NCBI GenBank assembly: GCA_001443495.1
Contig: LDXR01000014.1
Coordinates: forward strand, 8,684 to 72,683
DNA length: 64,000 bases
From: a candidate division NC10 bacterium CSP1-5
Lineage (GTDB): Bacteria; Methylomirabilota; Methylomirabilia; Methylomirabilales; CSP1-5
Reading direction: 5' to 3'
Numbering within the stretch: position 1 is the first letter of the stretch; every line of letters begins with the position of its first letter. The notes below the pieces were generated by a model, which saw only the letters and a list, made by a program, of their open reading frames with translations, was not told the origin of the DNA and did no database searches. This document shows positions 3,812 to 64,000 of the stretch, piece by piece. The position numbers were made by a program, and so were the translations under genes.

Positions 3812-3886
3812 CCTCCTCTGCACTCTCTGCACCTTTCTGTACCTTCTGCACCTTCTGCACTTTCTGCACTCTTTGTATTTTATGTA
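3812..3886. repeat. 9-bp tandem repeat array, left of zinc-ribbon gene
   Basis: About eight degenerate units of TTCTGCACC (variants TTCTGTACC, TTTATGTAC) lie directly after the nucleotidyltransferase stop. A second array of the same units and orientation lies on the other side of the small gene that follows. Confidence 0.8.
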
Positions 3887-4132
3887 CTATCCCTTCCCGA
3901 TCAGATGGCTATCCAGCTCCTTCTGGGCTTCTCGGAGGGTTTTGAAGGGCCACCGCTTGACAGCCGCCTCCTGCGAATGCTCACAGGCGGCGCAGCGCAT
4001 CACACACACCGTGTCGACGTAATAGTGCCCGCAGTTGGGATCGGCGGGGTCATCGGCCAAGGCGATCCGCTCAAAACTGTCCACCTGGTGAAACTGGTCC
4101 GCGCCCCCCTGGCCACACCGCTTGCAGATCAC
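3887..4132 (-). CDS. Small zinc-ribbon-like protein
   Basis: The frame is open into the repeat array upstream, but the credible start is GTG at 4132, giving 81 residues. Two Cys pairs, CKRC at the N-terminus and CAAC near residue 51, plus an intervening NCGHYYVDTVCVMRC segment, indicate a zinc-binding ribbon. The C-terminus is a charged helix. I do not recognise the family. The gene sits alone between two arrays of 9-bp repeats, as if it were embedded in the repeat region. A longer form starting at 4243 would translate the repeats into an Arg/Lys/Gly-rich tail and is less likely. Confidence 0.55.
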   Translation of the reverse strand: MICKRCGQGGADQFHQVDSFERIALADDPADPNCGHYYVDTVCVMRCAACEHSQEAAVKRWPFKTLREAQKELDSHLIGKG

Positions 4133-4139
4133 TCTTCCC

Positions 4140-4243
4140 CCCGCCCCCTCTGTGTTTTCTGCACCCTCTGCACCTTTTGCACCCTCTGTACCCCTCTTAC
4201 CCTTCTGTACTTTCTGCACCCTTCTGCACTTTCTGTACTGCAC
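4140..4243. repeat. 9-bp tandem repeat array, right of zinc-ribbon gene
   Basis: Roughly ten degenerate copies of TTCTGCACC/CCTCTGCACC fill the gap between the zinc-ribbon gene and the stop of the U32 gene. The unit is the same as at 3812-3886, so the small gene is bracketed by direct repeat arrays. Confidence 0.8.
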
Positions 4244-5212
4244 TCATCGCTGGCATCCCTGGACCGCCTCCCTCGCCTCCTGAAAGAGATCGAGGGTTCC
4301 TTTGGCCCGCTCGAGATCACGCTGGGCCTGGATCCGGGCCAGCCGGGCCTTCCACGGACCGAGATCAAAATCGTGAGGATCGGCCGAGTACGTGTCGATG
4401 AGGTCCCGGTAGAATTTGATCATCCGGCCAATGAGATCCACAGCGTACTCCCGCCCCTGGATCTTGAGGGTGTGAACCCCCATGTCGATGAGGTGGGGAA
4501 CGTCCTCGAGGAGAAAGAAGGCATCATTCTTGAGGGCGACCCGGTCCGCCCAGGGGTCGTGATTACCCCGCAACAGGCTCCACGCCTCAAGGCAAACCCG
4601 GTAGTCCAGGCCGCCACGGTTGGGGCTTCCCTTGAACAGATCTTTGCCGCTCTCATCCTGGCCCCGTTCAAGCCGGTGGTATGGGGACATCCAGCACTTG
4701 CCCAGATATGTGTAGCACTTGTTGGCGTGGATCAGGACCTCGACCCCGACCTCGATCTCCCGACGCGAGCGGAGCTCCTTCAGCGAGAGCTTGGTGTCGG
4801 CCACCACCTGGCGGACCCCGATCTCGCGGTAGAAACAGATGTCTTCGTCATTCAAGATGTTGGCCCCGATACTGGCGTGGATGGTCAGGTCGGGAAATGT
4901 CCGGTGCACCGCCGCCATGACCCCCACGTCGCTCAGGATGACCCCGTCGATCCCGTCGCGCACCCATACCTCCATTCGCCTGAGCAGACGTGGAAGCTCC
5001 TGGGACGTGGGATGGGTATTGACCGCCGCGCGGACCTTGACGCCCCGGGCGTGGGCGATCCGGACCGCCTCCCGTAACGCCTCATCGCTCAGTTCGTAGG
5101 CGTCCCGCCTCCGACTCCAACCCTTGGGCCCGACGTAGAGGGCATTCGCCCCATTTGCCACGGTCGCCTCGACCATCTCAATGCTGCCCGCTGGCGCAAG
5201 TAGCTCGACCAT
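4244..5212 (-). CDS. Peptidase U32 family protein (paralogue 1)
   Basis: The 322-residue product starts MVELLAPAGSIEMVEATVANG, the classic U32 opening (ELLAPAG...A...GA.AlYvG), and follows a GAGGAGG ribosome site. Despite the family name, studied members are RNA- or quinone-modifying enzymes (RlhA, TrhP, UbiU/UbiV) that hold an Fe-S cluster on conserved Cys. A C-x6-C pair (KCYTYLGKC) stands where UbiU has its first two cluster cysteines, and one further Cys follows about 34 residues later (YRVC). A fourth ligand is not obvious. It is first of three adjacent U32 genes. Substrate unknown. Confidence 0.8.
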   Translation of the reverse strand: MVELLAPAGSIEMVEATVANGANALYVGPKGWSRRRDAYELSDEALREAVRIAHARGVKVRAAVNTHPTSQELPRLLRRMEVWVRDGIDGVILSDVGVMAAVHRTFPDLTIHASIGANILNDEDICFYREIGVRQVVADTKLSLKELRSRREIEVGVEVLIHANKCYTYLGKCWMSPYHRLERGQDESGKDLFKGSPNRGGLDYRVCLEAWSLLRGNHDPWADRVALKNDAFFLLEDVPHLIDMGVHTLKIQGREYAVDLIGRMIKFYRDLIDTYSADPHDFDLGPWKARLARIQAQRDLERAKGTLDLFQEAREAVQGCQR

Positions 5213-5230
5213 TGGTCCCTCCTCATGATG

Positions 5231-5320
5231 AGCTGTCCGCAGTCAGCTGTCAGCAGTCAGCAATCAAGAGATGACCTTGAGCTGACTGCCGACGGTTCGG
5301 CTGAGCGGCTCGACTGAGCT
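5231..5320. repeat. Heptamer repeat with inverted arm
   Basis: The left part repeats AGCTGTC/AGCAGTC units and the right part carries the complement (GCTGACTGCC ... GGCTGAGC), so the strand can fold back. The right arm encodes the C-terminal tail of the next U32 gene, which therefore seems to have been extended into the repeat. Confidence 0.7.
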
Positions 5321-6259
5321 CGCCGAAGTCTCGCCGAAGCCTGCTGATGGCTGGCTGCCGATGTATAGTTGACCCGATTGACCGAAGTGGAAGCCGTTAC
5401 AGAGCCCGACCTTCGCATGGCCCTGGATCCTCTTCCACCAATCCCCCAGGATCTGATACGCGCCGCTCACGGTGTGCTCCAGGGCCTCTTGGTAGACCTG
5501 CCCGATGTCGCGACGGTACACGGGATCTTCCGAGATCGCCTCCACCCTGAAGGAGCGAAACCCAGCCGCGACCAGACGGGGGAGATGTTCCAGCATGCAG
5601 ATATCCCGTCCGCTCAGGACCCCCTTCCCCACCGACTTCATCGCCCACTCCCCTTGACGGAGGTACAGATCCTGCTGGCACAGATCCGGGCATTTCATTC
5701 CCCACACCTTTTCATACTCCAGCAGGAAGCAGTAATCGGATATCCCGAGGGGCATCTTGCCGTGCAGGAGGATCTCCAGCTCCAGCCCGGTGTTCTCCGC
5801 CATTCCCTCGATCTCTTCCAGCGAGAGTTCGTAGTTGGGGGTCACGCGGGCCGCCCCGTAGTCTCGGAGGACCGCGGCTCCCGTGTCGGTGTAGACATTC
5901 GCGAAGCCACCGATGTGGATCGCCAGACCAGGAAACTCCGCGTGGAGGATCCGGACCACCCCCAGGTTGTGCGCCTCAACGGCGTCCACCCCCTCCTCGG
6001 CGGCCACGGCGATCGCCCTCCGGATTTGAGGGAGGAAATAGTTCCGGGGGGCCGCATACGTGGTGAGGTAGACCTTGCGCCCCGCCCCCCGGCAGTGGCG
6101 GATCCCGGCCCGCAGATCCTCAAGCCTCTCCAAGAAATTCGCCTCGTAGTCCCGGCAGAACGGATTTCCCAGGTAGACGGCATCGTACGGACCGAGATCC
6201 GACGCCATCAGATCTTTCATATTGGAGATACCGGTGTTCAGCTCGAAGGCACGGTTCAT
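5264..6259 (-). CDS. Peptidase U32 family protein, UbiV-like Cys pattern (paralogue 2)
   Basis: The 331-residue protein has the U32 barrel signatures (YDAVYLGNPFC near the start; VDAVEAHNLGVVRIL; LELEILLHGKMPLG). Its cysteines are spaced C-x12-C-x3-C (from DYCFLLEYEKVWGMKC to PDLC), exactly as in E. coli UbiV, where they bind a [4Fe-4S] cluster; another Cys follows in GRDIC. UbiV works with UbiU in O2-independent ubiquinone hydroxylation, but this genome context does not prove that role. The ATG lies inside GTTCACG-type repeats with no clear ribosome site, and about the last 25 residues come from repeat DNA. Confidence 0.75.
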   Translation of the reverse strand: MNRAFELNTGISNMKDLMASDLGPYDAVYLGNPFCRDYEANFLERLEDLRAGIRHCRGAGRKVYLTTYAAPRNYFLPQIRRAIAVAAEEGVDAVEAHNLGVVRILHAEFPGLAIHIGGFANVYTDTGAAVLRDYGAARVTPNYELSLEEIEGMAENTGLELEILLHGKMPLGISDYCFLLEYEKVWGMKCPDLCQQDLYLRQGEWAMKSVGKGVLSGRDICMLEHLPRLVAAGFRSFRVEAISEDPVYRRDIGQVYQEALEHTVSGAYQILGDWWKRIQGHAKVGLCNGFHFGQSGQLYIGSQPSAGFGETSASSVEPLSRTVGSQLKVIS

Positions 6260-6313
6260 GGTTCACCGTTCACGGTTCAGGGTTGATGGTCCGAAGTCCG
6301 ATGTCCGATGTCG
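6251..6313. repeat. Heptamer repeats, GGTTCAC and GTCCGAT types
   Basis: Units of GGTTCAT/GGTTCAC/GGTTCAG are followed directly by GTCCGAA GTCCGAT GTCCGAT, all with a 7-bp period. They end at the left inverted arm of the element at 6314. Confidence 0.75.
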
Positions 6314-6511
6314 CCAAGAGCGAGGAGGGGTTCCTTCCGAGGCAGGCGACATCTGGCTTGCGTCGGCCGGGGTCCCGCCGCCGGAGCGCAGCGCAGGTGG
6401 GGGTGGCCCGCACTGGCGAATTCCGATGCCTCAGCATGCGTAACGTTGCCTCTGCGCATCAGGTCCCCGGAGAATATGGCGCTGCCGAGGAAGGTCCCTC
6501 CGAGCTCTTGG
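6314..6511. mobile_element. 198-bp element with ~30-bp inverted termini
   Basis: The sequence at 6314-6345 (starts CCAAGAGCGAGGAGGG, ends CGAGGCAG) is matched in reverse complement by 6482-6511 (CTGCCGAGGAAGG ... GAGCTCTTGG) with only a few mismatches. The 136 bases between hold no convincing gene. The element is flanked by heptamer repeats on both sides. It could be a miniature inverted-repeat element or a large RNA hairpin; the sequence alone does not decide. It accounts for most of the 301-base gap between the second and third U32 genes. Confidence 0.55.
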
Positions 6512-6546
6512 TTCACGGTCATCGGTCGTCTGTCATCGGTCATCGT
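6511..6546. repeat. Heptamer repeat, GGTCATC type
   Basis: Units GGTCATC GGTCGTC TGTCATC GGTCATC follow the right arm of the inverted element with a strict 7-bp period. Confidence 0.7.
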
Positions 6547-6560
6547 TGTTGGGTGCTGTA

Positions 6561-7484
6561 TCACCGTCCGAGCACCACCCATGATGTCGGGAGGCCGACT
6601 GGCTCGGCGTCGGCGATCTGCTGTCCGTTTCGGGTCTGATCAATGGCCGTGCGGAAGCGCCGGACCAACGCGAACAAAAGCTCTACGGGGAGGCCTCTCC
6701 CCTGAAGCTTGATCACGTCCACCCCCGCCTCCAGGTAGGCCCCGACCTCGGGTGCCCGGCTCACCTGGCGGGCGGGCAGCACGCGCTCATCTCTTTTCTC
6801 TCCGTCGAGATACAGGCCCCAGGGATGCTGGCATACCTTGAAGCAGACACCCGCGCCCCCCCGCTTGATCGATCCGGTGAGCCGCTCACCGTCGGCCGGC
6901 ATCTCCGGCATCAAGGCAGGATTCGTCCGGTAATAGCTCGGCATCCAGCACTTCCCGAGCTGGTGAAATTCATCCACCATATGGATCATGACCTCGATCC
7001 GGGCCTTGACATGCGGCCGGATCTCGGCGATCTCGGCAGGGTGGAGCGTCCCCGGGAGGACCACGCAGCTCGCGCCGATCTCCCCAAGGAGCGCCACGTC
7101 GTGAACATTCAGGGCGCCGCACCCGATGCTGGCGGTCAGCGACAGGTCCGGATAGCGCCGGTGAACACGGGCAAGGATGCCGGGGTCATTGAGGATGACT
7201 CCTGCGATCCCCCATGCACTGAGCCCTGCAAGGCGTTCAAGGAGAAAGTCGACCTCATGGCCTCGCGGAATCGTGTTGAGGGCGAGCTCGACCGTCGCCC
7301 CTCGCTGGCGGGCGAGGGTCAGGACCTCTTGCAGTTCTGCCGGGGTGAGCTCACCCCGGGCGCCCCCTCGACTCCACCCCTTGAGCCCCACATAGATGGC
7401 ATCCGCCCCTGCCTCCAGGCTGGCTTTCGCCGCCTCCACACTCCCAGCAGGAGCCAGGAGAGTTCCCCGATCCTTCATGGCCAT
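6561..7484 (-). CDS. Peptidase U32 family protein (paralogue 3)
   Basis: ATG at 7484 follows GAGG and gives 307 residues starting MAMKDRGTLLAPAGSVEAAK, the U32 N-terminal motif. A much longer upstream frame exists but runs antisense through the IclR gene. The Cys set differs from its neighbours: the position equivalent to the first UbiU ligand is not Cys (VDEFHQLGKC keeps only the second), and two more occur in GVCFKVC. It is closest to paralogue 1 in its GLKGWSR and GKCWMPSYY motifs, so a duplication is likely. Probably an Fe-S modifying enzyme of unknown substrate. Confidence 0.78.
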   Translation of the reverse strand: MAMKDRGTLLAPAGSVEAAKASLEAGADAIYVGLKGWSRGGARGELTPAELQEVLTLARQRGATVELALNTIPRGHEVDFLLERLAGLSAWGIAGVILNDPGILARVHRRYPDLSLTASIGCGALNVHDVALLGEIGASCVVLPGTLHPAEIAEIRPHVKARIEVMIHMVDEFHQLGKCWMPSYYRTNPALMPEMPADGERLTGSIKRGGAGVCFKVCQHPWGLYLDGEKRDERVLPARQVSRAPEVGAYLEAGVDVIKLQGRGLPVELLFALVRRFRTAIDQTRNGQQIADAEPVGLPTSWVVLGR

Positions 7485-7524
7485 GGCATCCTCGTCCGTT
7501 CGACCAAGCGAACGAAACGCCAGC

Positions 7525-7553
7525 ACGATACCACCCGCATCCGGACCCGTCAA
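7525..7553 (-). promoter_or_regulatory. Sigma70-type promoter before U32 paralogue 3
   Basis: On the minus strand TTGACG is followed after 17 bases by TATCGT, about 40 bases upstream of the ATG at 7484. Spacing is ideal and the -35 matches five of six. It would drive the three U32 genes independently of the IclR gene. Confidence 0.5.
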
Positions 7554-7564
7554 GGGGAAACTCA

Positions 7565-8335
7565 CTAGCGGGTTTGCCCCCCGATGACCCGGGTGATGAG
7601 CCCGGCGACCTCGCGGAGCTTCCGCCCACACCGGGCGAGCCGACGGCGTGGCAGAAGGGAGGCAAACCCAACCACGCCCAGGGCAAGGGTCACTTGACCG
7701 CGGTGGTCGAGGATGGGGGCCGCGACGGCGTTCACGCCCTTGGCCACTTCTCCAAAGCTCTCGGCAAACCCGCGGCGGCGCACTTCGGCCAAGGCCTTCT
7801 TTATCTGCGGGTACCGCTGCTCCCTGCGGCGCTCGGGCCGTTCCAGGACTCCTCGAGACCAGAGCCGATCCAGATCCCCCTCGGGCACATAAGCGAGAAA
7901 GCACTGACCTAACGCCCCCTGACCCAGAGGGAGCGCCTGGCCGATCGGGATCGTGATGCGGAAGGGATCCTGGGCCTCCACCCGTTCCACGATGATCACC
8001 CGATCCTGAAATCGCTGGCCCAAGAGGCAGGTGAGCTTGAGCTCATCAAACAGATCCTGGAGGAACGGTTTAGCCACATCGGCCCGACTGGTAGCCGCCG
8101 AGGCCGCCCCTCCGAACTCGATGAGGGCCGATCCCAGGCCGTACTTCTTCGTCCCCCCGTCGTAAGAGACCAGGCCATGCCGGGCCAAGGATCTGAGGAT
8201 GTTAAAACAGGTGCTCTTGTTGAGGTCAAGGGACCGGCTGAGTTCGGAAACACCCCAGGGCCGGTGGTTCCGGTCTTTCAAGAACGTGAGGATCCGGACC
8301 GCGCCTTCCACCGCCGGGACCTGACTGTGTGCCAT
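7565..8335 (-). CDS. IclR family transcriptional regulator (first)
   Basis: ATG 8335 with GAGGGG upstream gives 256 residues. Residues about 5-65 form the winged helix-turn-helix (AVEGAVRILTFL, VSELSRSLDLNKSTCFNIL), and the rest is the IclR effector-binding domain, ending with the AAPILDHRGQV segment typical of the family. IclR proteins usually repress or activate nearby catabolic operons in response to a small organic acid. It lies between the U32 genes and the ligase/CoA-transferase cluster and has its own promoter with a palindrome across the start site, which suggests autoregulation. Confidence 0.9.
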   Translation of the reverse strand: MAHSQVPAVEGAVRILTFLKDRNHRPWGVSELSRSLDLNKSTCFNILRSLARHGLVSYDGGTKKYGLGSALIEFGGAASAATSRADVAKPFLQDLFDELKLTCLLGQRFQDRVIIVERVEAQDPFRITIPIGQALPLGQGALGQCFLAYVPEGDLDRLWSRGVLERPERRREQRYPQIKKALAEVRRRGFAESFGEVAKGVNAVAAPILDHRGQVTLALGVVGFASLLPRRRLARCGRKLREVAGLITRVIGGQTR

Positions 8336-8363
8336 GGTGAGACCCCTCGAATGTTCTCTGGAT

Positions 8364-8376
8364 AGAACGAAGTTCT
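8364..8376. promoter_or_regulatory. Putative IclR operator palindrome
   Basis: AGAAC-GAA-GTTCT is a perfect 5-bp inverted repeat with a 3-bp centre. It starts about five bases downstream of the -10 box of the IclR promoter and would cover the transcription start. The half ATAGAACGA recurs in the promoter of the second IclR gene. Confidence 0.45.
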
Positions 8377-8380
8377 CGTC

Positions 8381-8409
8381 ATTAAACGATGTCCCACCGA
8401 ACCTGTCAA
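8381..8409 (-). promoter_or_regulatory. Sigma70-type promoter of first IclR gene
   Basis: Minus strand TTGACA, 17 bases, TTTAAT: an exact -35 and a five-of-six -10 at ideal spacing, about 45 bases before the ATG. Confidence 0.75.
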
Positions 8410-8429
8410 GAGAAAAAGGGGCAGGCAAC

Positions 8430-8468
8430 AAGAGAGGGGATCCCGACATCGTCGGGACCCCCTCTCTT
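8430..8468 (-). terminator. Hairpin terminator after the ligase gene
   Basis: AGAGAGGGG-TCCCGAC pairs with GTCGGGA-CCCTCTCT around a 3-base loop. It lies 30 bases past the ligase stop and before the IclR promoter. The T-run (TTTTCTT) is on the plus side, so it may be bidirectional. Confidence 0.65.
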
Positions 8469-8498
8469 TTCTTCGCTGATTTTCCTGCTGTCGCGAGA

Positions 8499-10175: not shown

Positions 10176-10188
10176 GGCGCCTCCTCCT

Positions 10189-10563: not shown

Positions 10564-10634
10564 AGCGTATTCCCCCTTCTTGTCAACGCCCGGATCGCCT
10601 CACAAACTATTACAAACGCATTTCATTTTCTGAC

Positions 10635-10732
10635 AATGGAGCATTAGACCATTAGACCTCAATGGAGCACCTTTGCCCTATTATGCCATTGCTCCATTGC
10701 TCCAAAGTGAACGCACTTAGTGCGTTTACTTT
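10635..10732. repeat. GGAGCAATG repeats and a 29-bp palindrome
   Basis: CAATGGAGCA units on the left face TGCCATTGCTCCATTGCTCC on the right. They are followed by a near-perfect palindrome at 10704-10732 centred on CGCACTTAGTGCG with AAGT/ACTT outer arms. This fills most of the 289-base gap between the thioredoxin-like gene and its upstream neighbour; no gene is visible there. Confidence 0.7.
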
Positions 10733-10781
10733 GGCTCACCGTACCATGCTCTCTTCCTACCGGTCAAGGTGATCTCCCGAG

Positions 10782-10820: not shown

Positions 10821-10852
10821 CTCCACCTTCTTGGATCGCCCAAGGGTAAAAG

Positions 10853-11272: not shown

Positions 11273-11282
11273 CTAATCGCTC

Positions 11283-13132: not shown

Positions 13133-13159
13133 GCTGCAGACCTCCTTGTCTCAGGCGTT

Positions 13160-16385: not shown

Positions 16386-16511
16386 CGCGCTCCTCCTCAA
16401 CGTGCCATGCCGTCTCGTGAAGTGCCAGCTAGCCGGCTAGTCTGCCAGAAAGCTGGAATGCTCAAGAGCCGACAGTCCAGCCTCCGTTCTCGCCTCCTAG
16501 CGTCCTCGCGT

Positions 16512-17201
16512 CTACCCCTGAGGTCGGGCGCCGAAAATCGCCGTCCCGATCCGGACCATGGTCGCCCCCTCCTCCACGGCGACCTCGAAGTCGTGGCTCA
16601 TGCCCATGGAGAGATGCCTCAGGCTCAGCTCGGGGAAGCGGGAGACAGCCTCCTCCCGGAGCCGGGTCAACCGCCGAAAGCAGGGCCGGACCCCGTCGGG
16701 GTCCGGATCGAAAGGGGGCATGGCCATCAACCCTTCGATGCTCAGGTGTGGCAGAGACCCCACTCTCTCCAGCAGAGGGAAGAGTTCGATTTCGGTCACT
16801 CCGGTCTTGGTCGGTTCCTCGGCGACATTTACCTCGACCAACGCTCGGACCCGCTTGCCCAGAGTGGATCCCGCCTTATCCAGTTCCTGCGCAAGCTTCC
16901 ACGAATCGAGGGAGTGGACCCAGTCAAAGAGCCGCACCGCCAGTCGCGCCTTGTTGGTCTGGAGGTGTCCCACCATGTGCCACCGGCACGGGGCATTGAT
17001 CTCGCCGATCTTGGCCTGTGCCTCCTGGACCCGATTCTCTCCGATATCGCTGATGCCAGCGGCGATGGCCTCCTCAATGGTGGAGGCTGGAAAGCTCTTC
17101 GCCACGGCCACCACCAGAACCTCCCCCGGATCTCGGCCCACCCGCAAGGCCGCCGCCGCGATCCGCGCCCGCACGCTCTCGACCCGCTCCTTGATGGTCA
17201 T
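16512..17201 (-). CDS. YggS/PLPBP pyridoxal phosphate homeostasis protein
   Basis: The 229-residue protein has the PLP-binding lysine in VAVAKSFP near residue 35, followed by IGENRVQEAQAK, WHMVGHLQTNKA, VNVAEEPTKTG, GLMAMPPF and SMGMSHDFEVAVEEGATMVRIGTAIFG. All are hallmarks of the YggS/PROSC family. It binds PLP without a known catalytic activity and buffers the cofactor and amino acid pools. It often neighbours pgeF and division genes, as here. It starts with ATG and its stop is about 125 bases before the aldolase. Confidence 0.93.
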   Translation of the reverse strand: MTIKERVESVRARIAAAALRVGRDPGEVLVVAVAKSFPASTIEEAIAAGISDIGENRVQEAQAKIGEINAPCRWHMVGHLQTNKARLAVRLFDWVHSLDSWKLAQELDKAGSTLGKRVRALVEVNVAEEPTKTGVTEIELFPLLERVGSLPHLSIEGLMAMPPFDPDPDGVRPCFRRLTRLREEAVSRFPELSLRHLSMGMSHDFEVAVEEGATMVRIGTAIFGARPQG

Positions 17202-17299: not shown

Positions 17300-17370
17300 G
17301 GTGGCTGGTGGTTGGCGACTGGTGGTTGGTCCTACTCACCAATCACTAATCACTAATCACCAGTCACTAC
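17300..17370. repeat. Heptamer hairpin repeat, GGTGGTTGG/CCAATCACT type
   Basis: The left arm (GGTGGCTGGTGGTTGG units) and right arm (CCAATCACTAATCACTAATC) are complementary if G-T pairs are allowed, and both repeat every 7 bases. It lies in the pgeF-yggS gap and provides the pgeF stop codon. Confidence 0.8.
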
Positions 17371-19522: not shown

Positions 19523-19561
19523 GCTGTCAGCTGTCAGCCATCAGCCGTCTGATAGCTGTTA
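19523..19561. repeat. Heptamer repeat, AGCTGTC type, between ftsA and ftsZ
   Basis: CAGCTGTCAGCCATCAGCC units at 7-bp spacing occupy the ftsA-ftsZ gap and touch the ftsA stop. GCTGTCAGC and GATAGCTGTT give weak self-complementarity. The same unit appears at 5231 and 63350. Confidence 0.7.
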
Positions 19562-22561: not shown

Positions 22562-22654
22562 CGTTCATGGTTCAGGGTTCAGGGTTCAGGGTTCATGGTA
22601 AGAGCCTAGTTTGCGCCGTCCCCACTCTGAACGCTGAACCATGAACTATGAACC
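22562..22654. repeat. Heptamer hairpin repeat, GGTTCAT/GGTTCAG type, between murC and murB
   Basis: Five units of GGTTCAG/GGTTCAT on the left are complementary to CTGAACGCTGAACCATGAAC on the right, with about 27 bases between the arms. The right arm reaches into the last codons of murC. Confidence 0.85.
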
Positions 22655-27679: not shown

Positions 27680-27689
27680 CCTTTGCCCT

Positions 27690-27789
27690 GGTTCATGGTT
27701 CATGGTTCATGGTTCATAGAAAGATCGAGACTCTGTTCGCCGGTCATCGGTACATCCGTCTCTGAACCCTGAACTCTGAACCATGAACG
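27690..27789. repeat. Heptamer hairpin repeat, GGTTCAT type, between mraY and murD
   Basis: Four perfect GGTTCAT units face CTGAACCCTGAACTCTGAACC and CATGAAC on the right, with a 41-base centre that carries a CGGTCATCGGT motif. The arms can form a long hairpin. It is one of the clearest copies. Confidence 0.88.
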
Positions 27790-27791
27790 CC

Positions 27792-30304: not shown

Positions 30305-30374
30305 GGGTGGTTGGTGATTCGTGATTGGTGGTTGGGAAGGAACACCAATCACCAGCCACTAGTCACCAGTCACC
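30305..30374. repeat. Heptamer hairpin repeat, GGTGATT/CCAATCAC type, between murE and murF
   Basis: GGTGGTTGGTGATTCGTGATTGG is followed after about 13 bases by CACCAATCACCAGCCACTAG, its complement, both with a 7-bp period. The right arm forms the last codons of murE. Confidence 0.85.
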
Positions 30375-38001: not shown

Positions 38002-38021
38002 GATCGATCCCTCCTCCCTCA

Positions 38022-38102
38022 AGGTTCATGGTTCATGGTTGATGGTTCATGGAAAAACCTGGGCTCTTAACGAACCCTGAACCATGAACCCGAACTATGA
38101 AC
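38022..38102. repeat. Heptamer hairpin repeat, GGTTCAT type, upstream of panB
   Basis: GGTTCAT GGTTCAT GGTTGAT GGTTCAT on the left face CGAACCCTGAACCATGAACCC on the right, with about 18 bases between the arms. The unit matches 22562 and 27690. Confidence 0.88.
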
Positions 38103-38131
38103 AAAAAAGACCTCCCGGACGTGCCGGGAGG
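38103..38131 (-). terminator. Rho-independent terminator after the kinase gene
   Basis: CCTCCCGG and CCGGGAGG form an 8-bp stem with a 5-base loop; on the minus strand TTTTTT follows. It separates the folK/kinase transcript from panBCD. Confidence 0.88.
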
Positions 38132-38248
38132 CCTAGAGTGAGCGATGCCGCTCTCGCGTCCTGAGACCCTTCGCCACTCCCGACGGTTTCTGTTCAGGGT
38201 GGCATTTCCTGCCGTTCGAGCGGCCCTTCCCTGCCCGTCTCGGTCCGC

Positions 38249-38896: not shown

Positions 38897-39441
38897 GGTA
38901 CACTCCTCTTTCCGGCCCGGGCGACACACCACTCCCGGGCCACCATCCGAACCTCGGGAAGCTGTGGAAGATGCGCGAGGAGGTCACTCACCCGGGTCCC
39001 GAGCCCCGGGTGCACCAGACCGGGGTCCAGCTCGGCCAGCGGGATGAGGACGAAGCGTCGCAGGTGCATCCGGGGGTGCGGGACCTGAAGATGCGGCTCC
39101 GCGATGATGCGAGATCCGTAGAGGAGAAGGTCCAGGTCTACGAGGCGTGCCTCTCCCCGCTCGCGGCGGCGCGGCCGGCCACAGGCCTCCTCCACTTCCC
39201 CGAGGGTCGCGAGCAGCTCGTCGGGGCCGAGAGAGGTCTCGATCTCTGCCACGCTATTGAAGAACCAGCCCGCCGCCGCCTCCACCGGCTCCGTCTCATA
39301 CAGGGACGAGAGGCGGAGGAGGTGGATGCCGGGACGGCATAGGAGGAGCGAGAGGGCCTGCTCGAGCGCTCTCTGCCGATCCCCCACGTTTCCGCCGAGA
39401 CCGAGATAGGCAACGGGGTTTGTTGGGTTTGTTGGGTTCAT
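38893..39441 (-). CDS. folK: HPPK, folate biosynthesis enzyme FolK
   Basis: The enzyme pyrophosphorylates 6-hydroxymethyl-7,8-dihydropterin. The core YLGLGGNVGDRQRAL, SSLYETEPVE, FFNSVAEIET, GEARLVDLDLLLYG and VPHPRMHLRRFVLIPLAE is canonical. The likely ATG 39441 lies inside a 9-bp repeat array, so the first nine residues read MNPTNPTNP, which is translated repeat. No ribosome site is visible, and no alternative start lies closer to the conserved core. Confidence 0.93.
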   Translation of the reverse strand: MNPTNPTNPVAYLGLGGNVGDRQRALEQALSLLLCRPGIHLLRLSSLYETEPVEAAAGWFFNSVAEIETSLGPDELLATLGEVEEACGRPRRRERGEARLVDLDLLLYGSRIIAEPHLQVPHPRMHLRRFVLIPLAELDPGLVHPGLGTRVSDLLAHLPQLPEVRMVAREWCVARAGKRSVP

Positions 39442-39475
39442 AGGGTTCGTAGAGTTTATTGGGTTTGTTGCGTTT
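39417..39475. repeat. 9-bp tandem repeat, GTTTGTTGG type, at the folK start
   Basis: Six to seven units of GTTTGTTGG (variants GTTCATAGG, GTTCGTAGA, GTTTATTGG) run through the start of folK and encode its N-terminal Asn-Pro-Thr repeats. Confidence 0.85.
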
Positions 39476-39493
39476 AGCCTCCTAGCCTTCCAG

Positions 39494-39529
39494 CCACCAA
39501 TCACTAACCACCATCCACCAACCACTACA
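39494..39529. repeat. Heptamer repeat, CCAATCA/CCAACCA type
   Basis: CCAATCA CTAACCA CCATCCA CCAACCA with a 7-bp period lies between folK and dapL and touches the dapL stop. It is a single arm of the type seen at 17341 and 30342. Confidence 0.75.
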
Positions 39530-42563: not shown

Positions 42564-42634
42564 CGCCCTCCTCCTCCCCGTCTATGGGTCTTGGGTGTTC
42601 TACCCGATACCCTCCACGGTCATCGGTCGTCAAA

Positions 42635-55364: not shown

Positions 55365-55376
55365 CGATCCCCCGGT

Positions 55377-55428
55377 CGCTAGCACGCTGGCATGCTGGGA
55401 CGCTAGGATGCTTTGTAGCTTTGTAGCC
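55377..55428. repeat. 8-bp tandem repeat, GCTAGGAT type, between argB and argD
   Basis: GCTAGCAC GCTGGCAT GCTGGGAC GCTAGGAT GCTTTGTA GCTTTGTA: six units with a strict 8-bp period. Weaker units of a similar kind (GCCAGCTAGCCGGCTAG) occur near 16425-16445. Confidence 0.85.
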
Positions 55429-55450
55429 CCCTCGCGTCATAGCGCGCTTC

Positions 55451-56341: not shown

Positions 56342-56406
56342 CCTTCTGCTCCTCGCCATTCAGTTCCGAGTGGCGGTTTGCAGGTCTCAGTCCTCAGCAC
56401 TGGCTG

Positions 56407-57747
56407 CTAGAGAATGTAGCGACTGAGATCCTCATCCCGGATGATGTCCTGGAGCTTCTCCCGGACATAGCCGGCATTGATTTCCACCTTGACCCCCTCC
56501 ATGTGCGGGGCCTCGAAGGAGACATCCTCGAGGAAGCGCTCCATGATGGTATAGAGCCGTCGCGCGCCGATATTCTCGGTGGCCTGGTTGACGGCGGTGG
56601 CGATAGTGGCGATCTCCTCGATGGCATCCCCGGTAAAGCTCATGTCGACCCCCTCGGTGGCCAGCAGCGCGGTGTACTGCCTGGTCAGCGCATTCTGCGG
56701 CTCGGTCAGGATCCGGACAAAGTCCTCTTTCGTGAGACTCTTCAGTTCCACCCGCAGGGGGAAACGGCCCTGCATCTCCGGGATCAGATCCGCGGGCTTC
56801 GAGACATGGAAGGCCCCGGCCGCAATGAAGAGGATATGGTCGGTCCGGACCATCCCATGCTTGGTGCTCACGGTCGAGCCTTCCACGATCGGGAGGAGGT
56901 CTCGCTGCACTCCCTCTCGGGACACGTCAGGACCGTATCCCCGCTCCCGACCGGCGATCTTGTCGATCTCGTCCAGGAAGACGATCCCGGAGTCCTCCAC
57001 CCGCCGGATCGCCTCGGCGACCACCTCGTCCATGTCGATCAGTTTCTGCGCCTCCTCCTGGGTCAGGAGTCGTCGGGCCTCCTTGACCTTCACGCTGCGC
57101 CGCTTCATCCGGTGTGGGAGAAGGTTGTCGAGCATCTCGCGGAGCTGATCCATTCCCTCTACCCCCGCCCCCGGCACGACCTCAATCATCGGCAAGGCCC
57201 GGTCCCGGACGTCGATCTCCACCATCCGATCATCCAGCTTGCCGGCCCGGAGCATCGTCCGGAACTTCTCTCGGGTGTCGTGAGGGGCGGCCTCGGTCGC
57301 CCCCAAGCCCACCGCTGGCGACCCAGCGCTACTCGGGGGGACGAGCAGACCGAGGAGTCGCTCCTCGGCCAGCTCTGCTGCCCGCTCGGCCACGACCGCC
57401 GTCCGCTCCCCCTTGACCATGTTGACGGCGATATCGACCAGGTCCCGGACGATGGAATCCACATCCCGCCCGACGTAGCCCACCTCCGTGAACTTGGACG
57501 CCTCGACCTTGAGGAACGGGGCCTCGGCCAATTTAGCCAAACGCCTGGCGATCTCGGTCTTGCCGATGCCGGTGGGACCGATCATGATGATGTTCTTGGG
57601 CGCCACCTCGTCCCGGAGCTCGGGGGGAAGTCTCTGCCGCCGCCACCGGTTCCGGATCGCAATGGCCACCGCCCGCTTGGCCGCATGCTGGCCGATGATG
57701 TACTTATCCAGCTCGGCCACAATCTGCCTGGGGGTCAATCGGTCCAT
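56407..57747 (-). CDS. hslU: HslU ATPase of the HslUV protease
   Basis: ATG 57747 gives 446 residues starting [20 protein letters not shown], the family opening; a GTG at 57789 overlapping hslV is less well spaced from its ribosome site. The Walker A is GPTGIGKTE, the pore motif GYVGRD, Walker [11 protein letters not shown] shortened I domain occupies about residues 95-220, and the C-terminal RYIL docks into HslV. It unfolds substrates for HslV. Confidence 0.97.
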
Positions 57748-57785
57748 AGGGCTTCCCGTGCGCTCCCCTTGCCCTCGCGCATCCG

Positions 57786-58328
57786 TCACAGCTCCTCAAT
57801 GGTGATCTGGTCGTTGCTGTAAACGGACAACTGGGCCGCGATGCGCATCGATTCCTGCATGATCGTCTTCAGGTCGAGGTCGGTAAACTTCACCAGGGCG
57901 CGGGCGGCTGCGGCCGCGTAGGGACCGCCTGAGCCGATTCCGATGATTCCGTCATCCGGCTCGATCAGGTCTCCCGTTCCAGAGATGATGAAGGAACACT
58001 CCTGATCCACCACCACCAGCAGGGCCTCGAGCCGCCGGAGCACCCGGTCCGTCCGCCAGTCCTTGGCCAGCTCCACCGCGGCCCGGGGCAGGTTGCCCTG
58101 GTATTCCTCCAGCTTCCCCTCCAGCTTGGCGAAGAGAGCAAAGGCATCGGCGGCCGCCCCCGCGAATCCCGCGATGACCTGGTTGTGGTACATCCGCCGG
58201 ACCTTTCTGGCCGTGTGCTTCATCACCGTTTCGCCCAGAGAGACCTGGCCGTCTCCTGCCACGGCGACCCGCCCCTTGTGGCGGACCGACAGAATCGTCG
58301 TACCCCGTATTCGTAGTTCACGGTTCAC
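57786..58328 (-). CDS. hslV: HslV peptidase subunit
   Basis: The proteasome-like subunit has the catalytic N-terminal Thr in [22 protein letters not shown], the second motif TARKVRRMY and the late [13 protein letters not shown]. Start choice is uncertain. GTG 58328, giving 180 residues with a nine-residue leader before Thr, is the nearest plausible start. It is formed by GGTTCAC heptamer repeats and lacks a clear ribosome site. Leader removal would expose the Thr, as in many bacteria. Confidence 0.93.
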
Positions 58329-58343
58329 CGTGGACGGTTCACG
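58315..58343. repeat. Heptamer repeat, GGTTCAC type, at the hslV start
   Basis: AGTTCACGGTTCACCGT and GACGGTTCACGG provide three units of GGTTCAC around the probable hslV start codon. Confidence 0.65.
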
Positions 58344-58397
58344 GCGCCCCCGAAGCGAGGAACCCCGCCGTTGCCTCTTGCTTTGCTCTTTCACCTT

Positions 58398-58466
58398 CCG
58401 CACGCTTTACCCTGCACGCGTTACCCTGTACGTCTTTCCCTGCACGCTTTACCCTGTACTGTACGT
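58398..58466. repeat. 14-bp tandem repeat between hslV and xerC
   Basis: Four to five units of CCTGCACGCTTTAC (variants CCTGCACGCGTTAC, CCTGTACGTCTTTC) follow the xerC stop with a 14-bp period, twice the usual heptamer. Confidence 0.85.
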
Positions 58467-58469
58467 GTC

Positions 58470-59414
58470 TCACGCCTTCGGGTGGGCCTTGTCATACACC
58501 GCCATCAGCTGGTCCAGATTCACGTGGGTATAGCGCTGGGTCGTGCTCAGCCTGGCATGCCCCAGCAGCTCCTGGATGACCCGCAGGTCAGCCCCCGCCT
58601 GGAGCAGATGCGTGGCAAAGCTGTGCCGAAGCCCGTGAGGAGTGATGGCCTTGCCCATGCCGCTCTTCTTCAGATACTTCTCCAGAAGCCGCTCGACACT
58701 CCGGGAGGTCAGCCGGTCCCCTCGGCGATTGAGAAAGAGCGGGCTCCGGTGGCCACCGAGGCGGGTGGACCCTGCCATCCCCTTGATTTTCCCGCTGCCC
58801 AGCGTATCTCTCGCCGCCAGGTGCGCCTTTAGGACCTCTGCGGCGGGCCGCCCGATGGGGACGATCCGCTCCTTGTTCCCCTTCCCCCTCACCTTCACCA
58901 GGCGCTGCTCGAGGTCCAGATCTTCGACGGCGAGACCCACGAGCTCCCCCACGCGGATCCCCGAGGCGTAAAAGAGCTCCAGGATCGCCCGATCCCGGAG
59001 AGTGATCGGCGCTGCACCCTGGGGCGTGGCGAGGAGCTGAAAGGCCTGATCCACCGTGAGATGCGGAGGGAGCGGCCTGGGAAGTTTGGGCGTCGTTACC
59101 AGCCTGGCGGGATTCCAGCTGAGAAGCCCGCGACGGCAGCAGAACTGACAGAACGAGCGTAACGCCGCGACCCTGCGAGCCAAAGTCCTCGGGGAGAGTC
59201 CTCGACTGCGCAGCGAGGCCATAAACGCCCGTACCGTCAGCGGATCGATCCGATCCAGCGGGATCGCCTCGGACGCCTCCGGGTGCATTCGACGGAGAAA
59301 CGCGAGGAACTGGGTCAGGTCAATCCGGTAGCTACGGACGGTCTGGGGTGAGGACCCCTCAGTGTCCAGCTCCCGGAGATATTCTTGGATGAGTCGCTGC
59401 ATCGCCGCCCCCAT
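58470..59414 (-). CDS. xerC: Tyrosine recombinase XerC/XerD family
   Basis: The 314-residue protein has an N-terminal SAM-like core-binding domain and a catalytic domain. Catalytic residues are Arg in ASGIRVGEL, Lys in VRGKGNKER, His-x-x-Arg in HGLRHSFATHLL, His in LGHARLSTTQ and the nucleophile Tyr in RYTH. It resolves chromosome dimers at dif. The place beside hslVU matches xerC in many bacteria. A later ATG at 59402 is also possible; a strong hairpin lies just before the start. Confidence 0.92.
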   Translation of the reverse strand: MGAAMQRLIQEYLRELDTEGSSPQTVRSYRIDLTQFLAFLRRMHPEASEAIPLDRIDPLTVRAFMASLRSRGLSPRTLARRVAALRSFCQFCCRRGLLSWNPARLVTTPKLPRPLPPHLTVDQAFQLLATPQGAAPITLRDRAILELFYASGIRVGELVGLAVEDLDLEQRLVKVRGKGNKERIVPIGRPAAEVLKAHLAARDTLGSGKIKGMAGSTRLGGHRSPLFLNRRGDRLTSRSVERLLEKYLKKSGMGKAITPHGLRHSFATHLLQAGADLRVIQELLGHARLSTTQRYTHVNLDQLMAVYDKAHPKA

Positions 59415-59419
59415 AGCGA

Positions 59420-59453
59420 CCGAGGGGATAGCTCCACCCCGCTATCCCCTCGG
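59420..59453. promoter_or_regulatory. Perfect 13-bp hairpin in the trmFO-xerC gap
   Basis: CCGAGGGGATAGC and GCTATCCCCTCGG pair perfectly around an 8-base loop, six bases before the xerC ATG. No T-run follows, so it may be a translational or processing hairpin rather than a terminator. Confidence 0.6.
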
Positions 59454-59484
59454 CAATGGACGATACGGCCTGCGGCTTCAAAGA

Positions 59485-60855
59485 TCAAGCAAAAATTCGC
59501 ATCCACGCCTCCATGGCCTTGAGGGAGCGCTCGGCCAAGGCCGCTTTGCGCTTCTGCCGATCACGGACGACAACGTCGAGGGGCGGCAGGAGACCGAAGT
59601 TCGCATTCATCGGTTGGAATCGGGAGGGATCTGTGGAAGTCACGTAGGTAAGGAGCGCTCCCAGCATCGTATCGCCCGGGGGGGTCACGGATTCGAGGCC
59701 CTGGACAAGCCGGGCCGCGTTGACCCCCGCGAGCAGCCCAGAGGCCATCGACTCCAGATACCCTTCGACCCCGATGAGCTGGCCGGCAAAGAAGAGCCCT
59801 TTATCCCCCCTGAATTGCAGCGTCGGCTCTAGGAGGAGTGGGGCGGGGATGTAGGTGTTGCGATGGACGCTGCCGTAACGGAAGAACTCCGCCTGCTCGA
59901 GGCCCGGGATCATCCGGAGGATCCGCTGCTGCTCCGCCCGTCTCAGACGCGTCTGAAAGCCCACCATGTTGACCATCTGCCCCGCCCTGTCCTCGTGGCG
60001 GAGCTGCACCACCGCGCAAGGCCGTCGTCCGGTCCGAGGATCCGTCAGGCCCACCGGCTTGAGGGGGCCATAGAGGAGCGCCTCCCGGCCGCGGCGTGCC
60101 ATCTCCTCGACGGGGAGGCATCCCTCAAAAAAACAGGCCTCCTCCAGATTTTCGAAATCGTGCAGCGGGTACAGCTCTGCCTCCACGAGGGCGCGCCAGA
60201 AGGCCGTGTACTCCTCGTCGGTCATGGGACAGTTCCAGTAGTCTTCGCCCCCCTTGCCGTAGCGGGAGGCGGCAAAGACCTTCTCCCGGTTGACGGACTC
60301 GGTCGCAAGAATGGGTGAGATGGCGTCGTAGAAAGAGAGGAGCCGCGCACCTTCTGCCGCGCATCGCTGCGGAGGCTGCTCCTCCAGATACGCCCGGAAG
60401 AGGCACCGGAGGCTTTCAGCCAGGGGGCTCGAGGTCAAGGGACCCGTGGCGATCACTACGGGCCGCTCGGCGGGGATCTCCGTTACCTCCTCCCGATACA
60501 CCGTGACGAGCGGATGGCCCCCGATCCGGCGGGTCACCTCGTGGGCAAAGGCGGTGCGGTCCACGGCGAGCGCCGTGCCCGCCGGGACCGCGTGGGCCCT
60601 CGCCGCCTGCTGGATGACGGACCCGAGGCGCCCTGCCTCCGCGTGCAGCAGGCCCGACGCGCTCGTCAGCTCTTGGGACTTGAGGGAGTTACTACAGACC
60701 AGCTCGGCCAACAGGTCGGTCTGATGCGCCGGGGTGCCGGCGGTCGGTCGCATCTCGAAGAGGCACACCGGCACACCCCGTTCGGCCGCTTGCCAGGCCG
60801 CCTCTGCACCCGCAAGGCCACCCCCCACGATGGTCACACACGCCTTGGGCTTCAC
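59485..60855 (-). CDS. trmFO: tRNA (uracil-5-)-methyltransferase TrmFO
   Basis: GTG 60855 gives 456 residues. This folate- and FAD-dependent enzyme makes m5U54 in tRNA. The FAD loop [15 protein letters not shown] is at the N-terminus; [17 protein letters not shown] and the [18 protein letters not shown] segment are diagnostic of TrmFO rather than GidA. It lies eight bases after topA, a conserved neighbour. Confidence 0.97.
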
Positions 60856-60863
60856 GGATCCGA

Positions 60864-63323
60864 TTATGCCCCGGGCTTGCGGTAATTGCAATCCACCGTC
60901 GCGCACTTGAGCTCAAGACCCTGACGGGTCCGGTGCTGGACGAGGAAGGGGGCACCACATTGAGGGCACGGCTCGGGGATCGGCCGATTCCAGAGGACGA
61001 AGGTGCACTCGGGATACCCGGTACAGCCGTAGAAGGACCTGCCCCGTTTGGAGCGGCGCTGGGTCAGGGCTTTACCGCACCGGGGGCACTTGACATCGAT
61101 GGGAAGCGGTCTGACGGTTCGGCACTTCGGGTAGGCGGAACAGGCCAGGAAGCGGCCATACCGGCCGTGGCGAATCACCATCGGGGCGCCACAGGTCTCG
61201 CATTTCTCATCCGTCGGTTCCGGCGCCACCCTTTCCTTCCCTTCGAGGCGGAGGACGTTCCGGCAGTCCGGGTAGCCGCTACACGCCCAGAAGAGTCCGT
61301 ACCGCCCCCGCTTCAACACCATGGGGCGCCCGCACTGCTCGCACACCTTGGTGTCGTTCGCCGTTGACCGATCACCGTCAACCGCGCCCTGACTCTCGTC
61401 TCCCCGGTCATCGGTCGCCGGTATGCGGTCATCGGGGGTCACCAGTTCGCGGGTGTTCTTACACTCCGGGTAGGCGGAGCAGGCCAAGAACTTTCCGAAC
61501 CGTCCCCAGCGGATGACCATGGGGCTCCCGCACTTCTCGCAGGTCTCCTCCGTCTTCTCTTCAAGCGCCTTGAGGTTTTCCATCCCGGTCTTCGCCTGCT
61601 CCAGCCACTTGGAGAAGGCCCCATAGAAGCGCCGCATCTCCTCGAGCCAGTCGACCTTCCCCTCCTCGATCTCATCGAGGACCGACTCCATCCTCGCCGT
61701 GAACTCGTAATCCATAATCCGTGGGAAGCTCTTGACCAGCAGATCGACCACCACTTCTCCCACCTCGGTCGGCCGAAATTTCCCCTTCTCCTTAATGACG
61801 TAATCGCGATTTTGAATGACCTGCACGATGGGCGCGTAGGTGCTGGGCCGGCCGATGCCCCTCTCCTCAAGGTCCTTGACCAAGGTGGCCTCGGTGTACC
61901 GCGGGGGTGCCTGGGTGAAATGCTGCTGGGGGTCCAGAGATCCGAGCGTCAGTACCTCCCCTGCGTGAAGGGAGGGCAGCGCCATCTCTCCGTCGGCCTC
62001 GCCATCGCCGTTGGCCTCCTGCCCCTCGTCCGTTCGGCGCTTCATCCCCTCGTCGGTCCCCTCCACGTAGAGCCGCATGAACCCCTCAAATCGCGTCACA
62101 CGCCCCGTGGCGCGGAGCAGGAAGCGCCCTGCCTCCACCTCCACCGTGGTCACGTCAAAGAGGGCCGCGGGCATCTGCGAGGCGACGAAGCGATTCCAGA
62201 TCAGGGTATAGAGGTTGAGCTGGTCTTTCGTGAGGTAGCGGGCCACACTCGCGGGATCCCGCAAGACCGAGGTGGGCCTGATGGCCTCGTGGGCCTCCTG
62301 GGCCGCCTTGGCGCTCTTGTATACGGGGGGCCGCTCGGGAACATATTCGGCGCCAAATCGCTCGGTCAGGTAGCGGCGGGCTTCTTGCACCGCCTCGTCC
62401 GACACCCGGGGGGAGTCCGTCCGCATGTAGGTGATGAGACCCACGGACCCCTCCTCCCCCAGCTCGATCCCCTCGTAGAGCTGCTGAGCAAGGCTCATGG
62501 CCCGCCGGGCGGTCATGCGGAGCTTTCGCACCGCCTCCTGCTGAAACTTGGAGGTGGTGAAGGGGGGAACGGGATGACGGCGCCGCTCCCGGGTGCTGAC
62601 CTCTTTGACCCGAAAGGGCTGCTGCCGAAGCTCTTCGACCAGGGCGTGGGCCTCGGCCCCGGTGTGGATCTCGATCTTTTCCCCGTTCATCCTGGAGAGG
62701 CGGGCCCGAAACTCCGGCGGCGCCCCGGCGGCGAGCAGGGCATCGATGGACCAGTACTCTTGGGACACAAAGGCGCGAATCTCGAGCTCGCGATCGACGA
62801 TCAGCCGAAGCGCCACGGACTGGACCCGACCAGCGCTCAGCCCACGCCTGACCTTCTCCCAGAGCAGTGGGCTCACCTGATATCCGACGAGACGGTCGAG
62901 AATACGGCGCGCCTGTTGGGCCTCGACTTTTTTGAGATCGAGCGAGCCGGGATGGGCAAAGGCCTCTTGGACGGCCCGCCTGGTCACCTCATGGAAGACG
63001 ACCCGATGTACCGCCTTCTTCGGTGGCTTCAGCTCTTGGACGAGATGCCACCCGATGGCCTCCCCCTCCCGATCCGGATCGGTGGCCAGATAGATGGCCT
63101 GAGAGTTCCGGGCCGACTTGCGCAGCTCCTCCACCACTTTCTCGCGCCCCTTCAGCACCTGGTACTGCGGCTTGAAGTTCCGCTTCGTATCCACCGCGAG
63201 CCGATTCGGCGGCAGATCCCGGACATGGCCATACGAGGCCTTGACCACATACCCCTTTCCGAGAAACTTCGTGATGGTCTTGGCCTTGGCCGGCGATTCC
63301 ACGATGACGAGCGATTTCGGCAC
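60864..63323 (-). CDS. topA: DNA topoisomerase I TopA
   Basis: The 819-residue type IA enzyme relaxes negative supercoils. It has the Toprim domain ([23 protein letters not shown]), [14 protein letters not shown] and the active-site tyrosine in TYMRTDSPR near residue 308. Five C-terminal Cys4 zinc ribbons follow from about residue 585. The linker between ribbons one and two is longer than between the others, rich in Asp/Gly/Thr, and encoded by CGGTCATC-type repeats at 61360-61437. A charged low-complexity stretch also occurs near residues 427-450. Confidence 0.97.
61360..61437. repeat. Heptamer-type repeat inside the topA coding region
   Basis: CCGTTGACCGATCACCGTCAACCG and, 20 bases on, CGGTCATCGGTCGCCGG and GCGGTCATCGG carry the same units as the intergenic copies at 6511 and 42600, with opposite arms. 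The reading frame stays open and the repeat encodes a linker between zinc ribbons. Confidence 0.65.
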
Positions 63324-63345
63324 GACTATTGTTCCTCCTGTGAAT

Positions 63346-63377
63346 GGCTATCAGCTATCGGCGATCGGCTGTCAGCA
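63346..63377. repeat. Heptamer repeat, GGCTATC/AGCTATC type, topA-dprA gap
   Basis: TGGCTATCAGCTATCGGCGATCGGCTGTCAGC repeats every 7 bases upstream of topA. A second set (CTGACCG CTGCCTG CTGACTG CTGACCG) at 63440-63474 encodes the last residues of DprA. Confidence 0.75.
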
Positions 63378-63414
63378 AAAACTTCCAGCCATAATACCAT
63401 GAAGGCTCATGTGC

Positions 63415-64000
63415 TTACTTGCTTCGCCGTTTTCCCTCTTGCTGACCGCTGCCTGCTGACTGCTGACCGCTCCAGGGGTCGGTGGCGCGAACGAACGTCT
63501 TGCCGGTGAGCTGCTTCACCCACCCCTTCATCTCTAGCGCAAGCAGGGACGCGGCCACCGCGGGGGCCGGGAGTTTCGCACCGGTGATGACGGCGTCGAT
63601 ATGGACCGGCTCCTCTCCGAGCAGCTCGAGCACCCGGCCTTCTTCCCCTTCGAGCGGCGGAAGGGACGGCATCGGGGCAACCGCCTCCGGCGGCATGTCA
63701 GTCGGGATCCGCAACTCTTCTACAACGTCCTCCCACCCCTCGGTGAGCTTGGCCCCCGCCTTGATCAGCCGGTGAGACCCCTGGCTCAGCCGGCCCTTGG
63801 CCATCCCTGGGACCGCGAAGACTTCCCTCCCCTGCTCCAGTGCATGATTCGCCGTGATGAGGGCGCCACTCTCCACCGACGCCTGGACCACGATGACCCC
63901 CAGGGAGAGTCCGCTGATCAGCCGATTCCGTTGGGGAAAGTTCCCCTTCAGAGGAGCAGTCCCCAGAGGAAACTCGCTCAACAGCGCTCCCTGCGCTGCG
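63415..64000 (-). CDS. dprA: DNA processing protein DprA, C-terminal part
   Basis: The frame is open to the window edge, so the start lies beyond 64000. The visible 194 residues contain the end of the Rossmann-like domain (SEFPLGTAPLKGNFPQRNRLISGLS, VVQASVESGALITANHALEQGREVFAVPG) and a winged-helix tail. DprA loads RecA on incoming single-stranded DNA during transformation. Neighbouring topA is a common arrangement. The last 15 residues (Gln/Ser/Gly-rich) are translated heptamer repeat. Confidence 0.95.
   Translation of the reverse strand, partial: AAQGALLSEFPLGTAPLKGNFPQRNRLISGLSLGVIVVQASVESGALITANHALEQGREVFAVPGMAKGRLSQGSHRLIKAGAKLTEGWEDVVEELRIPTDMPPEAVAPMPSLPPLEGEEGRVLELLGEEPVHIDAVITGAKLPAPAVAASLLALEMKGWVKQLTGKTFVRATDPWSGQQSAGSGQQEGKRRSK

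Follow-up and report, generated by a model that had tools for sequence, protein, structure and literature searches.

Short tandem arrays of fixed period, built mainly of 7-bp units and in part set as two inverted arms, occupy gene gaps throughout the genome of the methane-associated candidate division NC10 bacterium CSP1-5, a member of Candidatus Methylomirabilota, where they keep a fixed polarity, stay in conserved intergenic slots, and belong to a small set of unit families that replace one another in those slots. The window, meaning the whole stretch of 64,000 nucleotides that was analyzed, is part of a 2.77-Mb assembly of 40 contigs that is 99.7% complete, and its MurD matches Candidatus Methylomirabilota MAGs at 90–94%. 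The genome was sampled over 856 kb and later over approximately 1.26 of the 2.77 Mb, with genes called by a simple codon model of our own and not by a standard annotator.

At a fixed score, 84 period-7 intergenic arrays were observed in the 856 kb vs. 0.2 expected from Markov-resampled DNA, together with 26 arrays of period 8 and nine of period 9 (1.0 expected in each case), while periods 5, 6, and 10 gave two intergenic arrays each. The excess over Markov DNA is specific to period 7 (with 14 and 21), followed by 8 and 9; in coding DNA, the same scan returned mostly triplet-type periods. The initial annotation had proposed a genome-wide system of fixed-period arrays with inverted arms in an organism that is not a cyanobacterium, to be regarded as an artefact if the arrays were missing from independent assemblies or no more frequent than in shuffled intergenic DNA. 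The system is borne out on both sides: the intergenic period-7 count lies more than 100-fold above Markov DNA, unlike that of periods 5, 6, and 10, and an assembly artefact is excluded because arrays are also present in the assemblies of six relatives and in a further genome that consists of one contig of 2,752,854 bp. With 84 period-7 arrays in 856 kb, the genome has the tandem intergenic heptamers in many copies that are characteristic of STRR.

The units had been described as differing from site to site, which does not hold as stated, as approximately 10 recurring families account for most arrays. The heptamer classes are GGTTCAT (A), GTCAGCA (B), CGATGAC (C), GTCCGAT (C2), GGACTGA (D), GGTGATT (E), GTCAATG (F), and GGTGTTG (H); the octamer families are AATGGAGC (o1) and GCTAGGAC (o2), and the nonamer families are GTACAGAAG and GTTTCTTGG. 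Within each unit, the core is fixed and one to three positions vary, often by transitions. Since runs of exact cores lost most arms, degenerate periodic profiles were adopted for arm detection. Set against the real counts, reversed-unit controls came out low for the A, C, o1, and o2 families; this was not so for B, D, E, and H, and the single short arms of these four are therefore less certain.

Arms were found by the family scan in 21 gaps of the window, in keeping with the about twenty sites first reported, and TRF together with direct reading located arrays of periods 7, 8, 9, and 14 where they had been placed. The elements below are given without strand and, unless another source is named, were found by both TRF and the family scan. 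Same-family facing pairs are clear at nine sites. These comprise a B element with left arm AGCTGTC/AGCAGTC and right arm GCTGACT (5231-5293, also by reading); an o1 octamer element (AATGGAGC ... GCTCCATT) followed by the palindrome AAAGTGAACGCACTTAGTGCGTTTACTTT (10634-10704); an E element with a GGTGATT-type left arm and an AATCACC right arm (17300-17367); an A element between murC and the next cluster gene with five GTTCA units, a spacer, and four TGAAC units (22563-22654); an A element adjoining murD that has a short C right arm within its spacer (27689-27788); an E element between two mur-cluster genes (30306-30374); an A element flanked by a conserved intrinsic terminator and the ribosome site that follows (38019-38102); an o2 element of the GCTAGGAC family (55374-55444); and a B element with a long spacer (63351-63471).

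The remaining sites carry one arm or mixed arms in the family scan. An H right arm (161-188) precedes a C right arm (195-215; the whole, 161-215, by family scan), and n1 nonamer arrays (TTCTGCACC) run in one orientation at 3817-3887, in a convergent gap, and at 4146-4239, with approximately 9–10 degenerate units. At 6250-6312, an A left arm (GGTTCAT) is followed by a C2 left arm (GTCCGAT), and the same gap holds a C right arm (GGTCATC) at 6516-6545. Lone arms are those of o2 (right, 16485-16512, family scan), B (left, 19523-19549), D (right, CTCAGTCCTCAG, 56381-56397, family scan), and A (left, 58310-58344). An n2 nonamer array (GGGTTTGTT) stands with an E right arm at 39416-39525, and a short H left arm stands with a C right arm at 42585-42631 (family scan); a 14-bp period array (GCACGCTTTACCCT, 58400-58459), found by TRF and in the sequence, is left unassigned. 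The inverted-arm architecture that had been thought common to the sites is clear at the nine; elsewhere the arms are single or mixed, and they are degenerate rather than perfect hairpins.

Two other repeats accompany the arrays. The o1 copy of the window (10634-10735) has a 29-bp palindrome of the type AAAGTAAACGCACTNAGTGCGTTTACTTT downstream, with TGTGACA often upstream, and contigs C2, C3, and C5 of this genome carry further copies; o1 looks like a conventional type of dispersed repeat family. In addition, the short palindrome GGCTCGACTGAGCTCGCCGAAGTC recurs (window 5293-5339) and sometimes splits heptamer arms, including those in the relatives G002 and G005. There is no Rfam match in the window at the gathering threshold.

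Over the 1.26 Mb, same-family facing arms stand in one order 81 times and in the other once. The elements have a median length of 82 bp with approximately 3.7 units per arm, and the 81 facing pairs have a median spacer of 22.5 bp, which makes them paired tandem 7–9-mers on opposite strands at variable spacing, the arrangement known from Geobacter. Facing arms lie in 78 of 702 gaps and separate these arrays from STRR in the sense of direct repeats with no inverted partner. The heptamer-element spacers are unalike between copies, so that the conserved body of a MITE is missing, with o1 as the exception. The polarity extends beyond single families, with left-type arms before right-type arms in 39 vs. 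11 combinations of different families within one gap (the pairs being non-independent), which gives nests of the kind A C2 H | H C or B D D | D B. Where a gap of 40–170 bp contains a single arm, this similarly lies to the left when left-type and to the right when right-type (p = 0.013). Left arms are often richer in purine or G, but GGTTCAT is pyrimidine-rich and three families are without G-C skew. By gap type, pairs occupy 72 of 568 co-directional, five of 57 convergent, and one of 77 divergent gaps (co-directional vs. divergent, p = 0.0009); in co-directional gaps, the array starts at a median of 7.5 bp past the stop codon and ends 21 bp before the next start.

The arms had been expected to form hairpins in RNA and perhaps to act in mRNA processing. 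Folding is indeed better in gaps that contain facing pairs than in shuffled DNA (median z of −2.64, compared with −1.10 for one arm and −0.62 for no array). In five of the six families, however, the two arms of an element show a poorer match than shuffled arms taken from other elements (combined p ~1e-5), with o1 going the opposite way. Elsewhere, weak arm matching gave a combined p of 0.018 over five tests that include the finished genome and partly orthologous copies, and the 2.75-Mb genome taken by itself does not show the effect (p = 0.41). Wobble-compatible mismatches are not favored over non-pairing ones (77 vs. 70), and no wobble-preserving RNA selection was seen in the arm mismatches. 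The poor match between arms of one element leaves selection for a perfect RNA hairpin unsupported, and RNA hairpins as the selected product are not upheld. An origin of one arm from its partner by snap-back copying is likewise rejected, because the arms of an element are no more alike than those of strangers. A possible reason for the weak matching is the loss of over-perfect palindromes.

Six relatives (G001–G006) were compared at 24 orthologous gaps. A slot filled here is filled in the relative too in 69 of 74 comparisons, and one that is empty here is empty there in 35 of 39; counted per slot, the figures are 14:0 vs. 1:9. The family in the slot is far less constant, as 27 of the 69 doubly occupied gaps have no family in common, and family differs in five of 10 doubly occupied slots between G000 and G005 (94.7% identical) and in three of 10 between G003 and G006 (96.4% identical). 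The window slots lie within the mur cluster, and the compared region of contig C2 looks, from its sequence, like a ribosomal-protein operon, with gene starts MGRSLKKG and MARIAGVD that we take to be those of rpsS and rpsM. At 27680-27791, the window and G002 carry A and G005 a B element, while at 30306-30374, G005 and G004 have an A element in place of the E element of the window. The slot at 38002-38248 contains A/A, C/C, C with an A left arm, C with TTCGAAAT and an A right arm, or B/B among the window and relatives, in each case between the same conserved terminator and ribosome site; in G002 and G005, the mixed form is a C left arm, the TTCGAAAT palindrome, and an A right arm. The conserved intrinsic terminator of the upstream gene lies at approximately 38104-38132 on the minus strand, and all relatives have an array in the interval from this terminator to the ribosome site that follows, a position at which a promoter would be expected. 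Empty alleles of 27–34 bp exist; when array and empty alleles were compared for target-site duplications, their flanks proved strongly diverged. The spacer AAAGCCAGGTTCTTAAT, common to relatives, was rejected as a mobile core, as a genus-wide search at ≤2 mismatches gave two matches, in G004 only.

The arrays reach well beyond this species. The A pattern is present in all seven genus genomes and in 20 further relatives (60 searched), and in 420 kb of the one-contig genome of 2,752,854 bp, there are 32 period-7 intergenic arrays vs. 0.2 expected, with GGGTATA as the main unit. Some arrays of that genome have CCCTAAA/TTTAGGG units, the same as the telomere repeats of plants, which is probably a coincidence of G-rich heptamers. 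Among loci fetched for MurD from other phyla, Nitrospirota contributed 106 period-7 arrays over 543 kb, Deltaproteobacteria 26 over 141 kb, and Clostridia one over 390 kb. The arm order of this genome is kept in the relatives, and facing pairs in the MurD-locus phyla, covering 25 unit classes, have the G-richer arm first in 21:3 and the purine-richer arm first in 25:3. A general G-rich-left bias of inverted repeats is absent from the non-array repeats of this genome (26 vs. 31) and weak in the array-bearing loci of the other phyla (19 vs. 7).

The same polarity holds on IMG/VR contigs, with B pairs at 21:0 and A pairs at 18:0, counts that include some duplicate contigs. The four-unit B pattern occurs there in 58 stretches vs. 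seven in the reversed control and the five-unit A pattern in 58 vs. 23. One contig, L287, carries a structural operon of a phage, with genes for capsid, adaptor, tail terminator, and tail tube, and has B elements in successive gaps. Contigs L287, L340, L354, and L336 have heptamer arrays in many gene gaps with one main family per contig, and L340 carries a tape-measure gene. BLAST with model elements gave no match in cultured phages and only weak partial matches in plasmids.

Several kinds of machinery were searched for. No RVT_1 reverse transcriptase was found in the 99.7%-complete genome, and a telomerase-like reverse-transcribed origin is rejected for it with RVT_1 as the family tested. Ku is likewise missing from this genome and present in one of 35 in the order; Ku-dependent end joining is rejected here. 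The genome has one Y1_Tnp gene, whose adjoining gaps are free of arms, and a RAYT origin is rejected for this genome on that ground. No Y1_Tnp was found in G001, despite 144 array matches there, and no array-flanked transposase was found.

We tentatively prefer, as the leading candidate but short of a probable one, the reading that this foldback-like repeat DNA spreads by break-and-copy between existing arrays. An array would be a quasi-palindrome that is fragile and tends to break; the 3' ends left by a break would carry left-type (often purine/G-rich) units, might be extended by short-homology template switching onto other genomic arrays, and would be rejoined by recombination. Such copying could renew, replace, or nest arms in existing slots, would keep left-type units pointing inward in any family, and would spread a common unit set, while slippage would then alter the number of units and purifying selection would restrict the elements to gaps where they are harmless. 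The recombination route is one that we infer, no break, copying, or transfer event having been observed. It is preferred because of the order of left-type and right-type arms across families, which arm pairing alone does not predict, and because of the mismatch between arms. Conserved slots with swapped families fit foldback selection or renewal by breaks and ectopic copying alike, and selection for some structure in the slot could explain slot conservation equally well. A possible although doubtful alternative is one in which the elements are selected intercistronic hairpins of the REP/BIME kind, any foldback serving to protect or separate neighboring mRNAs and the family being free to change. 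Slots kept through family changes, the rarity of pairs in divergent gaps relative to co-directional ones, the better folding of pair gaps, and elements inside ribosomal-protein, mur, and phage structural operons speak for it; the poor matching of own arms, the unfavored wobble changes, and mixed slots whose arms are unable to pair speak against it, and the need for a hairpin does not in itself require a fixed unit polarity.

Movement of whole non-autonomous MITE or foldback elements by an arm-recognising transposase is unlikely. It would account for dispersed families, the 27–34-bp empty alleles, nested pairs, copies on phage contigs, and the fixed flank of o1 with its 29-bp palindrome, as in an ordinary MITE; however, the non-conserved spacers, with the motif shared by relatives recurring only in G004, and the single and mixed arms argue against it for the heptamer families, and the lone Y1_Tnp is away from arms and has no counterpart found in array-rich G001. 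Less likely still is that the arrays are paired binding sites for a nucleoid or global regulator, as proposed for the Geobacter metallireducens classes (PMC2700814). Inverted symmetry, a conserved core with variable positions, and independently evolving arms agree with this, but many unrelated families of one genome replace each other at the same gap, and divergent gaps, which are the ones with promoters, have almost no pairs. An origin by local replication slippage alone, or by chance, is hardly credible. The initial annotation had suggested spread or expansion by slippage, and the number of units indeed varies, as at 27690, where G002 has two units fewer than the window; slippage alone is nevertheless insufficient for shared families, fixed polarity, and family swaps in conserved slots. 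The period-7 excess, not seen at 5, 6, and 10, counts against it, and since identical units recur at loci with no relation to one another and in other phyla, independent slippage cannot be the only cause. Beyond the break-and-copy reading, a common DNA process in several phyla and phages, in which intergenic breaks would have purine/G-rich units of 7–9 bases added to the two 3' ends, telomere-like and leaving left-arm and right-arm arrays of fixed inward polarity, independent of family, RVT_1, and Ku, is conceivable but quite improbable.

Foldback transposons such as Drosophila FB and Galileo have a variable middle part enclosed by inverted arms, which are built of short direct repeats in tandem. 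They are eukaryotic, far larger, and have a transposase source, unlike the elements here of approximately 80 bp with no transposase. Like the elements described here, REP/BIME/REPIN sequences with RAYT are short dispersed palindromes between operon genes; here, the arms are instead tandem 7–9-mers, the spacers are non-conserved, and no RAYT link was found. The combination of several periods with inverted arms had been thought undescribed, but PMC2700814 (2009) already reports it in Geobacter metallireducens classes 1–3, made of GTTGCTYN octamers, TCTCCGTS[Y] 8/9-mers, and MTYCTGA heptamers, which are multicopy and paired on opposite strands at variable spacing (24, 21, and 8 pairs), the same paired tandem architecture as here. 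That text calls them "predicted global regulator binding sites", possibly for IHF/HU, and notes a different sequence in one such gap (proBA) of a related species; as far as it goes, it mentions neither a polarity rule nor conserved slots, and neither sharing across phyla nor copies in phages, unlike the present case (PMC2700814). The families here differ from GTTGCTYN, TCTCCGTS, and MTYCTGA in a comparison by eye. G. bemidjiensis has multicopy intergenic sequences, some with direct repeats of 6–42 nt and often several per gap. Cyanobacterial STRR and the TAACTGA arrays of Beggiatoaceae are tandem intergenic heptamers in many copies per genome with suspected horizontal spread, but the latter are direct repeats of one unit with inverted pairs nearly absent (one case), unlike here (PMC4679880). 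Borg tandem repeats and bacterial satellites are abundant, and Chloroflexus has a dispersed GATAGRA heptamer; these are direct repeats, and the accounts consulted describe no inverted architecture, unlike the arrays here (PMC9879509; PMC6749651). The literature searched, which left out most subscription papers and all preprints, gave no account for Methylomirabilota or of rules on polarity and slots. Apparently unreported are the polarity rule, the swapping of families within conserved slots, the cross-phylum range, and the phage copies.

Scattered notes on bacterial heptamer repeats are hereby brought together as one testable phenomenon with rules, namely, period 7 first, a small common vocabulary, fixed polarity, fixed slots, and interchangeable families. 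Within essential operons for ribosomal proteins and peptidoglycan synthesis, the internal gaps are rewritten while the coding sequence remains 95–96% identical, and phage contigs bear the same elements.
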